DNA from: Aureimonas fodinaquatilis
Lineage (GTDB): Bacteria > Pseudomonadota > Alphaproteobacteria > Rhizobiales > Rhizobiaceae
Assembly: GCF_008369445.1 (NCBI RefSeq)
Contig: NZ_VTWH01000002.1
Coordinates: forward strand, 496,001 to 560,000
Direction: 5' to 3'
Length of the DNA stretch: 64,000 bases
The position numbers were made by a program, and so were the translations under genes. Positions 27,822 to 47,484 of this stretch are shown piece by piece. The notes beneath the pieces are model-generated. The model did no database searches. It was given only the letters and a program-made list of their open reading frames with translations, and was not told the origin of the DNA. Every line of letters starts with the position of its first letter. Position 1 is the stretch's first letter.

Positions 27822-29270
27822 ATGCCATTTTCAGAGCTAGGGCTCAGCGCCAAGGTTGTCGCCGCTGTTGAGGCGGCTGGTTATACCGAACCAACGCCAA
27901 TTCAGGCGCAGGCCATTCCACACGCTTTGCAGCGGCGCGATGTTCTGGGCATTGCCCAGACAGGCACCGGCAAAACCGCGTCGTTTGTGCTGCCTATGCT
28001 GACCATGCTGGAAACGGGGCGTGCACGGGCGCGCATGCCGCGCACGCTGATAATTGAGCCAACGCGGGAACTGGCCGCGCAGGTGGAAGAATCCTTTGTC
28101 AAATATGGCAGCCAGCACAGGTTGAATGTCGCCTTGTTGATTGGCGGTGTGTCGTTTGAAGACCAGAACCGCAAGCTGGAACGCGGCGTGGATGTGTTGA
28201 TCGCGACGCCTGGCCGTTTGCTGGACCATTTCGAGCGCGGCCGCCTGTTAATGACCGGCGTGGAAATTCTGGTGATTGACGAGGCAGACCGGATGCTCGA
28301 CATGGGGTTCATCCCCGATATTGAGCGTATCTGCAAAATGATACCCTTCACCCGTCAGACCCTGTTCTTCTCTGCTACCATGCCGCCGGAAATCACCCGC
28401 CTTGCGGATCAGTTTCTGCAGAACCCTGTGCGGGTGGAAGTGGCCAAAGCCTCGTCCACCGCGCAAACGGTTGAACAAAGGCTGGTTGCCTGTTCGACGA
28501 AAGATTATGAAAAGCGCGACATGCTGCGCACGATCATTCGTTCTCAGGGCGAAGAACTGACCAACGCGATCATATTCTGCAATCGCAAGCGGGATGTTTC
28601 GTTGCTGTTCCGCTCTTTGGAAAAGCATGGCTTTTCCGTTGGCGCACTGCATGGCGATATGGACCAGCGCGCCCGCACCATGACGCTGCAGGCGTTCAAA
28701 GATAACAAGCTGACTTTGCTGGTGGCATCAGACGTTGCGGCGCGCGGGCTGGATATTCCGGCCGTCAGCCATGTGTTCAATTTCGACGTGCCCACACATG
28801 CAGAAGATTATGTCCACCGCATCGGCCGCACCGGGCGTGCCGGTCGCTCGGGCAAATCCTTCACCATCGTAACAAAAGCCGACAAGAAATATCTGGACGC
28901 CATTGAAAAGATGATCGCCAAAGACATTGAATGGCTTGAGGGTGACCTTTCGACTGTGGTGGAAGGTGAGTCCAGTGGCAGGGATGACAAGCGCCCCTCA
29001 CGGCGCGGAGCAAAGAAACCTTCGTCACGCGGCAAGAAAGACAGCGATGCCACTGTGGCGCCTGTGGACGAGCCGGAGATTGTCGAAACCGCGTCCATTG
29101 CAACCGAACCCGCTGCAGAGCCAGTCGCGCTGATTGAGCGCCCTCGCCGCAATGAGCGTCATGATCGCAACCATGACCGCGGCAGAAACGGCGGCGGACG
29201 TGAAGAGCCGACACCGGTTGGCTTTGGTGATGATATTCCGGCCTTTATGCTGATCAGCACCGGCGCTTGA
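27822..29270 (+). CDS. rhlE: DEAD-box RNA helicase, RhlE type
   Basis: ATP-dependent RNA helicase of 482 residues. The Q motif FSELGLSAKVVAAVEAAGYTEPTPIQ is followed by AQTGTGKT, PTRELA, DEADRMLDMGF, SATMP and HRIGRTGRAGRSG, all typical of RhlE. The C-terminal 110 residues are a low-complexity, charged extension with several Arg/Lys-rich blocks (RRGAKKPSSRGKK, RRNERHDRNHDRGR), probably for RNA or partner binding. RhlE-type helicases can associate with RNase E degradosomes in proteobacteria. That link is inferred, since rne lies 20 kb away. A composite palindromic repeat lies just downstream. Confidence 0.92.
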   Translation: MPFSELGLSAKVVAAVEAAGYTEPTPIQAQAIPHALQRRDVLGIAQTGTGKTASFVLPMLTMLETGRARARMPRTLIIEPTRELAAQVEESFVKYGSQHRLNVALLIGGVSFEDQNRKLERGVDVLIATPGRLLDHFERGRLLMTGVEILVIDEADRMLDMGFIPDIERICKMIPFTRQTLFFSATMPPEITRLADQFLQNPVRVEVAKASSTAQTVEQRLVACSTKDYEKRDMLRTIIRSQGEELTNAIIFCNRKRDVSLLFRSLEKHGFSVGALHGDMDQRARTMTLQAFKDNKLTLLVASDVAARGLDIPAVSHVFNFDVPTHAEDYVHRIGRTGRAGRSGKSFTIVTKADKKYLDAIEKMIAKDIEWLEGDLSTVVEGESSGRDDKRPSRRGAKKPSSRGKKDSDATVAPVDEPEIVETASIATEPAAEPVALIERPRRNERHDRNHDRGRNGGGREEPTPVGFGDDIPAFMLISTGA

Positions 29271-29396
29271 AGCCCGGCCCGCGACAGGAGCGACGGGAAC
29301 GGCGGACAGTTATCAGGATATGGCAGGTGGTTATTCTATCATCTGAAATGTTCTGATCGTTTGATTTGGCGCTATATTCCAATCTCAAACGAAGCC

Positions 29397-29490
29397 GTTT
29401 CACACGATCTCAAGGGTCGCCAGAACAATCTGACCTCAAGTCATTCGCATTGTCTTGCCGTTAAAACGCAACCGTTTTAACGAGAAATGC
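29397..29490 (-). repeat. Composite palindromic repeat, copy A
   Basis: A 94-bp intergenic element between convergent rhlE and sufA. The left part begins GTTTCACACGATCTCAAG and matches copy C at 47390. The right part, 29447-29490, is the 44-bp core that begins GCATTGTC and ends GAAATGC, with a perfect 10-bp stem CGTTAAAACG/CGTTTTAACG around CAAC. Its layout, two palindromes in about 100 bp between genes, recalls rhizobial RIME elements. Confidence 0.85.
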
Positions 29491-29511
29491 TTTGGACAAT
29501 TCCGCCAGAAT

Positions 29512-29895
29512 TTATGGCTGGACCGAGCTTTCCAGCAGAGACTTGTCCGCTGGTGTCAATTCCACAGACTCGCCGCATCCACAGGCAGATGTCTGATTGG
29601 GATTGTTGAACACAAAGCCCGTGCGCAGAACGGTGGTTTCAAAATCCATCACCGTGCCGAGCAAAAACAGAACAGCCTGTGGCGACACAAACACTCGCGC
29701 ACCATCCTTTTCCACCACGTCTTCGCCTGGATTGGGCTGCTCTGCCAGCTCGATGGTATATTCCATACCCGCACAGCCGCCCTTTTTCACGCCAATGCGT
29801 ATTCCCGCATCCCCACCTTGCGCACGCGCAGACACAAGTTCGCGCACGCGTGAAGCGGCGGCGTCAGTCAGTGTCATAATTGCAAAGCGTCCCAT
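29512..29895 (-). CDS. sufA: Fe-S assembly A-type carrier, HesB/IscA family
   Basis: A-type carrier that receives Fe-S clusters from the SufBCD scaffold and hands them to apoproteins. Its 127 residues carry the three conserved cysteines: C41 in KKGGCAGMEY and C105 and C107 in SACGCGES. AAGGAG seven bases before the ATG at 29895 fixes the start. It is the last gene of the leftward suf operon, 20 bp after sufT. Confidence 0.93.
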   Translation of the reverse strand: MGRFAIMTLTDAAASRVRELVSARAQGGDAGIRIGVKKGGCAGMEYTIELAEQPNPGEDVVEKDGARVFVSPQAVLFLLGTVMDFETTVLRTGFVFNNPNQTSACGCGESVELTPADKSLLESSVQP

Positions 29896-42696: not shown

Positions 42697-42905
42697 CGGC
42701 CAGTCCGAATATTCAAGGTTGAAACACCAGACCAGCGAACCGCTTCATCCTTAAAATCGCTCGCAAACCCACTGGACCAACTCTTGTCAATTGCAGTATT
42801 GGCCCATTCAGAATTCATCATCAGATGCTCTTTATGATATAGCGGAACACAGCCGGGTCTTATCCCCAGTTTCCCATTTCAATGAGCGTAAAGGAAGGCC
42901 ATTTC

Positions 42906-43397
42906 ATGCTCTCAGTTGTCGAAGGCGACACTCTTCCAGATTTTTCTCTTTCCGATGCCGACGGCCAGACGGTTTCCAGGCAGCAATTGGGGGGAAAACC
43001 CTTCGTGCTGTATTTCTATCCCAAGGATGACACGCCGGGTTGCACCACGGAAGCGCTGGATTTTTCCGCATTGTTGAAAAAGTTCGAAGCATTGGGAGCA
43101 GAAGTCTTTGGCGTCTCGCCCGACAGTGTGGCCAAGCATTGCAAATTTCGCGACAAGCAGGGGCTGAAGGTGCGGCTGCTCGCAGACGAAGAGCACCAGC
43201 TTTTGAAGGCTGTGGGTGTCTGGGCTGAAAAACGCAGTTTTGGTCGCACCAGCATGGGGGTTGAGCGCACGACATTGCTGGTGGATGCCGATGGCAGGAT
43301 TGCCAGGATCTGGCCGAAGGTCAAGGTGTCCGGCCATGCGGTTGAAGTGCTGGATGCAGTGCGCGAATTGAACGCGGCCCCAAGCATTTCCCGTTGA
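42906..43397 (+). CDS. bcp: Thioredoxin-dependent peroxiredoxin, Bcp type
   Basis: Reduces hydroperoxides with thioredoxin-like electron donors. 163 residues from the ATG at 42906, which has AAGGAAGG at good spacing; an upstream ATG at 42882 lacks a site. The peroxidatic Cys is C46 in YPKDDTPGCTTEALDF. The second Cys five residues later, present in E. coli Bcp, is absent (Leu/Asp there), so this is a 1-Cys type or uses another Cys such as that in KHCKFRD. The last four residues and the stop codon lie inside the first unit of the palindromic repeat array (43384 on). Confidence 0.93.
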   Translation: MLSVVEGDTLPDFSLSDADGQTVSRQQLGGKPFVLYFYPKDDTPGCTTEALDFSALLKKFEALGAEVFGVSPDSVAKHCKFRDKQGLKVRLLADEEHQLLKAVGVWAEKRSFGRTSMGVERTTLLVDADGRIARIWPKVKVSGHAVEVLDAVRELNAAPSISR

Positions 43398-43551
43398 AAC
43401 GGTTACGTTTCAACGACAGGACAATGCGATAAGCAAAAGGTCTTCGCATTTCCCGTTGAATCGGTTGCGTTTCAACGACAGGACAATGCGATAAGCGAAA
43501 GGTCTTAGCATTTCCCGTTGAAACGGTTGCGTTTCAACGACAGGACAATGC
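43384..43551 (+). repeat. Tandem array of three 44-bp palindromic units, 62-bp period
   Basis: Units at 43384-43427, 43446-43489 and 43508-43551 are almost identical and spaced exactly 62 bp apart. Each starts GCATTTCC, carries the stem CGTTGAAACG / CGTTTCAACG around a 4-base loop, and ends GACAATGC. The 18-bp links are also alike (GATAAGCAAAAGGTCTTC type), so it is a tandem duplication, not a CRISPR. Decayed sequence of a fourth unit continues to about 43600. Single copies of the same unit are at 29447 and 47441. Confidence 0.92.
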
Positions 43552-43600
43552 GACACAGCAAAAGATCTTAACTTTTGCCGTTGAACGAATGCGGTCGAAC

Positions 43601-43651
43601 AAAAAAGGCCGGAGCTGTTTCACCACCGTTATGTGAGAAACAGCACCGGCC
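43601..43651 (-). terminator. Rho-independent terminator of prfB
   Basis: Read leftward, GGCCGG and GCTGTTTC arms (with one A-A mismatch) pair across a 15-base loop (43607-43651) and are followed by TTTTTT (43606-43601). It lies 20 bp after the prfB stop. Confidence 0.92.
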
Positions 43652-47316: not shown

Positions 47317-47389
47317 CTGTCCATGCCCTGAGTTTCAGCCGGCCCGGCAGGCCGCAACCACGTCTTACGCTTCACCGCTGCATCAGCTC

Positions 47390-47484
47390 GTTTCATAGGA
47401 TCTCAAGATCGCCTGACACGCTCTAACTTCTTGTTATGTCGCATTGTCCTGACGTTAAAGCGATTCCGCTTCAACGGGAAATGC
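47390..47484 (-). repeat. Composite palindromic repeat, copy C
   Basis: Upstream of PBP1A. A 95-bp element with the same two-part layout as copy A at 29397. The left part contains GATCT-CA-AGATC and the right part (47441-47484) is the 44-bp core. The core stem is CGTTAAAGCG/CGCTTCAACG with one G-T pair, differing from the array units by a paired A-T to G-C change, which keeps the hairpin. Confidence 0.85.

Follow-up and report, generated by a model that had tools for sequence, protein, structure and literature searches.

Paired changes in the hairpin of a dispersed intergenic repeat of Aureimonas fodinaquatilis, and decay of its single copies

The 44-bp palindromes of the window (the whole stretch of 64 000 nucleotides that was analysed, C2:496001-560000 in a genome of 3.93 Mb) are hairpins of a dispersed intergenic repeat, and their pairing has been kept during the evolution of source lineages, not locus by locus. 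With a probability of roughly 0.6, we regard the repeat as a non-autonomous spreading element whose hairpin is kept in the copies that multiply and decays after a copy has been placed. As bacterial repeats go, it is of an ordinary kind, though its history is informative. The initial annotation had taken paired change to imply selection on the folded hairpin; the covariation is real, while upkeep at each locus is unsupported. Paired changes among repeat copies indicate that the hairpin mattered to the lineage that multiplied, and are no proof that each copy is a maintained RNA. Examining array and single copies apart makes this common trap in the reading of paired changes visible.

All five 44-bp palindromes of the initial annotation are present: copy A at 29447..29490 (+ strand), a tandem array of three 44-bp units with a period of 62 at 43384-43551 (- strand), and copy C at 47441..47484 (+ strand). 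Chance would give none of them (the mean over 100 shuffles is 0.00). DNA folding of copy A, array units 1 and 2, and copy C gives 5 pairs, a 1-base bulge, 3 pairs, a 3-base bulge, and then a 10-pair stem with a 4-nt loop; the palindrome, first described as a single 10-bp stem, has 18 pairs (5 + 3 + 10), with both bulges on the 5' arm. All 18 of 18 pairs form in copy A and in array unit 1 (43508..43551, - strand, the 5'-most in element orientation); array unit 2 (43446..43489, - strand) and copy C have one inner-stem mismatch each. The array stem originally given, CGTTGAAACG/CGTTTCAACG, does not apply to this middle unit, whose single unpaired stem change, at pair 20/29, is an uncompensated T.T on the + strand (A.A in element orientation). 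The 3' end of unit 3 (43384..43427, - strand) forms the last codons and TGA stop of an AhpC/TSA-family gene (42882-43397), at whose end the array sits, opposite a release-factor gene. Compared with the array, copy A does show pair 17/32 changed on both arms from G-C to A-T, as claimed, and also a second paired change that had been overlooked: the outer pair 9/37 goes from C-G to T-A. The change from A-T to G-C on both arms of copy C is seen at pair 20/29, and what had been called its G-T intermediate is an A.C mismatch on the + strand (pair 17/32), a G.T on the complement only. The loop of copy C is GATTC. Copy A is flanked by convergent genes (DEAD-box helicase and Fe-S assembly), and copy C has an amidase gene on one side and, on the other, what we take to be the gene for penicillin-binding protein 1A (PBP1a). 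Upstream of the array in element orientation, 43553-43610 appears to be a degenerate fourth repeat unit.

Across the genome, a degenerate pattern allowing up to three mismatches retrieves 135 copies, and its reversed control none. Covariance model R1 matched all 150 of the candidates scored, out of 3878, which makes its count a lower bound; less two second-strand duplicates, at least 148 distinct places carry the family. These 148 copies are distributed over 101 loci, of which 72 hold a single copy and 29 an array of 2-4 units, the orientation being uniform in 29 of 29 arrays and the spacing 54-63 bp in 40 of 47 cases and 99-103 bp in 7. The claimed uniform length of exactly 44 bp is true of the five in the window, but not of the genome, where 108 of 148 have that length within a range of 38-48 bp. 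Beyond the list of model matches, C2:6366-6412 carries another paired stem, CTGTGGAAGTG/CACTTCCACAG, and thus further stem types occur in the genome.

Each palindrome is the second hairpin of a larger non-coding intergenic unit of ∼105 bp, composed of hairpin 1, a linker, hairpin 2, and often a terminal TA. This length takes as the left end the stop codons located 54 nt before hairpin 2; one search window located a left-terminus motif in only 1 of 101 loci, a wider one showed eight such ends, and the 54-nt positions were used instead. Idealised by eye, hairpin 1 is TAGAGCGTTTCAGGTGATC-n4-GATCACCTGAAACGCTC, and the T-rich linker of ∼17 nt, recognisable in 50 of 101 loci, is TAACTCTTTGTTTTGTC. 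Hairpin 2 follows the scheme GCATT-G-TCY-TGN-10 bp-loop-10 bp-RGA-AATGC, and the commonest letters downstream of it are TCTAG (12/101) and TTTAG (7/101). By inspection, the ∼102-bp arrays repeat the whole composite and the ∼60-bp arrays only hairpin 2 and the linker; hairpin 2 is tandemly repeated, with or without hairpin 1, at 29 of 101 loci. When the best register is chosen per locus, which inflates pairing, hairpin 1 has at least 11 of 18 pairs in 37 of 101 loci versus 3.7 in shuffles. The argument for hairpin 1 therefore rests on a fixed-register test of those first copies in which the linker is retained (50 of 101): 8.2 of 18 positions pair versus 6.3 for arms of different loci, and 0 of 5000 permutations reach the observed value. 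In the window, hairpin 1 and linker lie upstream of copy C (47385..47440, + strand), with 12 of 18 positions of this hairpin 1 paired, while the presumed equivalent upstream of copy A (29391..29446, + strand, boundaries by analogy) is strongly decayed and lies outside the 37 loci. A known Rfam RNA was dropped as an explanation: in Rfam 15, tRNA is the sole match above gathering threshold in the window, and no family exceeds it at 8 loci of the repeat.

Covariation of the hairpin stem is real. Within the genome, 3' arms pair better on average with the 5' arm of their own locus than with those of other loci, at 8.60 of 10 versus 7.99 for the inner arms of hairpin 2 and 7.03 of 8 versus 6.83 for the outer arms (78 of 101 loci); neither observed value was reached by any of 2000 permutations. 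The 108 copies of 44 bp hold 81 double Watson–Crick changes, concentrated at four pairs that mark subfamilies: 39 at 20/29, 23 at 9/37, 11 at 13/36, and 5 at 17/32, with 3 elsewhere. The paired differences within the genome are mostly due to descent from few source lineages. This concentration (78 of 81) is also what would be seen if a few subfamilies merely happened to be paired and were under no constraint at all, a reading of pure common descent that we consider very improbable: pairs 9/37 and 20/29 occur in all four combinations, one array has a paired difference between neighbours, and in the comparison with congeners five of the ten inner pairs are altered on both sides yet still paired.

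The cross-species alignment, of 24 congener and 7 own sequences, has 93.9% of its cells paired and contains 62 double-change cells, compared to 18.7 after shuffling and at most 13 with the partner slid; pair 15/35 takes all four Watson–Crick types. Among these 31 sequences neither the count of pairs showing a double change (6 versus 5.4 shuffled) nor that of further pair types (18 versus 19.6) is in excess, and pair 13/37 is unpaired in 21. Most copies, including the cross-species set, had been gathered with models that reward pairing, and the search was therefore repeated with the outer frame alone. This gave 39 matches, 21 in 8 of 20 congeners and 18 in the own genome. All 21 congener matches have 8–9 of 9 inner positions paired, as compared to an average of 4.7 for shuffled inserts; so do 15 of the 18 own matches with 9 positions paired, the other three having 5, 6, and 7. 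The covariance-model alignments A2 and A3 contain antisense rows, and neither alignment entered the counts.

Individual copies present a different picture. Array copies are nearly intact, with a mean of 0.60 of 18 pairs broken (52 copies), versus a mean of 3.14 among single copies. Unpaired stem mutations at a neutral rate, named in the initial annotation as the sign of a hairpin that is not maintained, are what these dispersed copies carry, 54 of 56 single copies of 44 bp having at least one broken pair. Leaving aside the four subfamily-marking pairs, single copies have a broken fraction of 0.151 at the other 14, versus 0.145 for independent mutation of the arms, and the 784 cells hold 115 one-sided and 4 two-sided changes (1 Watson–Crick), where simple arithmetic from a divergence of 0.078 per column predicts ∼4.8 two-sided. 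Stem columns diverge by that 0.078, versus 0.095 for the conserved unpaired columns 6, 10, and 11. Array neighbours show 26 one-sided differences and 1 two-sided Watson–Crick difference. Among the 56 single and 52 array copies there is thus no evidence that pairing is maintained in place; the models favour paired copies, and true decay is, if anything, larger.

This decay bears on the view that the hairpin acts as an RNA at each locus (an mRNA 3'-end stabiliser, a processing site, or a terminator) and is selected there, and the placement of the repeat speaks for that view. With genes called by our own codon-usage script, 0 of 148 copies lie inside a gene and 10 overlap with the 3' end of one. 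Convergent sites outnumber what element-free intergenic DNA would predict (25 versus 15.4), and divergent sites fall short of it (14 versus 21.9; p 0.005 for convergent against divergent). Among gene ends that face the 3' end of the element, 32 of 61 stop at fixed single-base positions: 25 at the element end (17 one base before hairpin 2, 5 at hairpin 2, and 3 one base inside) and 7 at a TGA 14 bases inside. The latter genes read into the element, and six of the seven have an element-encoded -SISR terminus. Gene ends facing the 5' end of the element stop 54 bases before hairpin 2 in 5 of 51 cases. A count of gene-end orientation (43 versus 10) was set aside because hairpin 1, lying between gene and hairpin 2, confounds it. 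The folds of copies A and C are stable on both strands, and in both the complementary RNA fold is the stronger. Nevertheless, we judge selection on an RNA at each locus improbable. Besides the neutral-like decay of single copies, co-directional genes reveal no orientation preference (26 versus 36, p 0.25), and a gene that reads into the 3' end is not accompanied by better pairing: the mean number of broken pairs is then 2.86 (n 14), compared to 3.47 with a gene running into the 5' end (n 15), 3.04 with no gene reading in (n 25), and 4.0 with genes reading in from both sides (n 2), with p 0.39 for the first group against the second and third combined. An intrinsic terminator was dropped as a candidate at copy A, with 0 terminator-like sites (stem and T-run) in the surrounding 29200-29600.

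Mismatches offer a further handle on the level of selection. Under symmetric mutation, G.T and A.C mismatches are expected in equal numbers, and selection on RNA of the written strand favours G.T. The counts of G.T versus A.C are 50 versus 67 in hairpin 2 (p 0.14), 82 versus 104 in hairpin 1 (p 0.12), and 13 versus 26 in a genome of another genus described later (G306; p 0.053). In none of the three sets is G.T favoured, and wobble pairing thus gives no sign of selection on written-strand RNA. The pooled counts, 145 versus 197, lean toward A.C with p 0.006, a value that is not strict for related copies; such an excess would fit weak selection on the complementary RNA, where A.C becomes G.U, though the sets taken singly have the p values given earlier. 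The mismatch and placement data are neither evidence for an RNA role nor its exclusion.

Template switching from one arm to the other during replication (quasipalindrome correction), which the initial annotation did not consider, may also yield paired changes with no selection involved; the available extract of PMC8794818 describes the mechanism for RNA genes. Two of the 148 copies suggest that template switching can produce paired changes here also: C1:230985-231032 and C4:93170-93217 are 48-bp palindromes whose 3' arm complements the 5' arm including the bulges, and which keep the usual 3' flank. As an account of the family we find it unlikely. Switching in place is too rare to serve as repair (1 Watson–Crick double change against 115 one-sided changes), and at the 5' bulges the G and TG have mostly been retained, not corrected. 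Of nine non-palindromic loops present at least three times in the genome, the reverse complement was seen once, and for six such loops in G306 it was seen 0 times. We rank template switching second as a source of paired change, given the near absence of inverted loops and how rarely repair occurs in place.

Relatives of the repeat extend through the family. With model R1 at E 0.01 they appear in 11 of 20 congeners, and with model R2 in 50 of 151 family genomes (the own genome included) and 41 of 109 genera, i.e. about a third of the family genomes sampled. The own inner stem, allowing up to two mismatches, was found in 0 of 40 other genomes. Around the putative PBP1a gene, protein identity to Aureimonas altamirensis and A. 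frigidaquae is 85–86%; at the orthologous sites of three loci, two from A. altamirensis and one from A. frigidaquae, neither the array nor copy C is present, though these species are too diverged to tell insertion from loss. Model R1 applied to 34 named loci gave a best E of 0.42, away from those orthologous sites. At least 107 copies of the same two-hairpin composite occur in G306, in which hairpin 1 has at least 11 of 14 pairs in 46 of 107 copies (0 in one shuffle of each), and the inner stem is that genome's own, with four strongly covarying pairs. Outside those four, 84 of the 107 copies hold 57 one-sided and 8 two-sided changes (5 Watson–Crick), versus 1.2 two-sided expected. This excess, a less neutral result than that for A. 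fodinaquatilis, indicates upkeep of pairing beyond the four subfamily pairs in that genome and counts against the reading that we prefer.

We return to the spreading, non-autonomous element that we prefer. The ∼105-bp repeat, with the palindrome as its hairpin 2, has multiplied in two ways: it is dispersed over 101 loci, and hairpin 2 has been repeated in tandem. We infer that it is mobile and that a copying enzyme would act on it in trans, needing the hairpin, probably as DNA, which would also be the level at which selection acts. If the hairpin is needed for copying, source copies would keep their pairing under that constraint, and new source lineages would come to carry paired changes; a placed copy would be unmaintained and would decay. 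Two candidate enzymes were dropped along with the elements they drive. A REP driven by a RAYT does not suit a genome in which the Y1 transposase of the RAYT kind (PF01797) has no match (5 of 14 control genomes have one), nor does a MITE moved by a DDE_3 transposase suit one in which no DDE_3 was found. These two negative searches also count against the mobile element that we prefer.

Among known repeats, RIME1 has a two-palindrome structure and is probably of the same kind as the window repeat; RIME elements, reportedly described in rhizobia by Osteras et al. in 1995, are likewise short, intergenic, palindromic mosaic repeats of related bacteria, set beside ours by description only. A rhizobial motif matched 0 of 199 genomes of the order; given the R2 matches, it may have been too strict or inaccurate. 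Our literature search, judged by title and abstract opening, found no report of palindromic repeats in Aureimonas. The closest description is that of the CIR elements (CcrM-associated intergenic repeats), which in the available extract of PMC2229807 are abundant intergenic elements of alphaproteobacteria, ∼110 bp long, with two inverted-repeat arms and a linker, TA termini, and GANTC at a terminal loop. By that description, our repeat shares the architecture (two arms and a linker, at ∼105 versus ∼110 bp) and the intergenic-only placement (0 of 148 inside called genes), and GANTC and TA only in part. GANTC occurs in the loop of 28 of 108 own copies, where column frequencies predict 13.9; in G306, 37 of 84 copies have it within the central 12 nt. 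On the 3' side, TA stands at +3,+4 in 40 of 101 last copies as compared to 2 of 47 inner array copies, and in 68 of 107 copies in G306. Tandem arrays of one hairpin, as seen here, go unmentioned for CIR in that extract.

REPs and REPINs, as covered in the available part of PMC3116915, are palindromic, extragenic, and genome-wide, compensatory changes are common among them, and single REPs are less alike than those in doublets. Our repeat resembles them in its palindromic, extragenic, and dispersed character, in its compensatory changes, and in its singles being more divergent than its grouped copies, and the pattern observed thus has precedent; it differs in that the genome lacks a RAYT and that all 29 arrays have one orientation in place of inverted doublets. 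The available part of PMC3733652 relates that the termini of GTAG REPs supply stop codons of genes, that GTAG- and CGTC-tagged REPs lie mostly downstream of genes, that the CGTC type is common in alphaproteobacteria without a dedicated transposase, and, as cited there, that G.T pairing is frequent in REP stems. Placement downstream of genes and termini that give stop codons (GTAG), and occurrence in alphaproteobacteria (CGTC), are shared with our repeat, whereas its stems have no G.T excess and, on inspection, it has 18 bulged pairs in place of an 8–9 bp stem, and neither an unpaired CGTC tag nor a CCA tail.

A broader proposal, which we hold tentatively and think doubtful as it stands, is that such two-hairpin mobile repeats are family-wide, with a constant outer frame (GCATTnTCC/GGAAATGCTCTA) and an inner stem that turns over in paired fashion between species; the stem would be the address for an enzyme that copies hairpin DNA, is neither RAYT nor DDE_3, and lands preferentially at stop codons. 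With a constant frame and a variable stem, the repeat would lend itself to a search for the copying enzyme in which variants of the enzyme are matched to types of stem. Two contigs of the assembly, C1 and C6, start with near-identical gene fragments, each followed by a repeat array (C1:1-500 and C6:1-440); by eye, the ends of these fragments resemble an outer-membrane protein.
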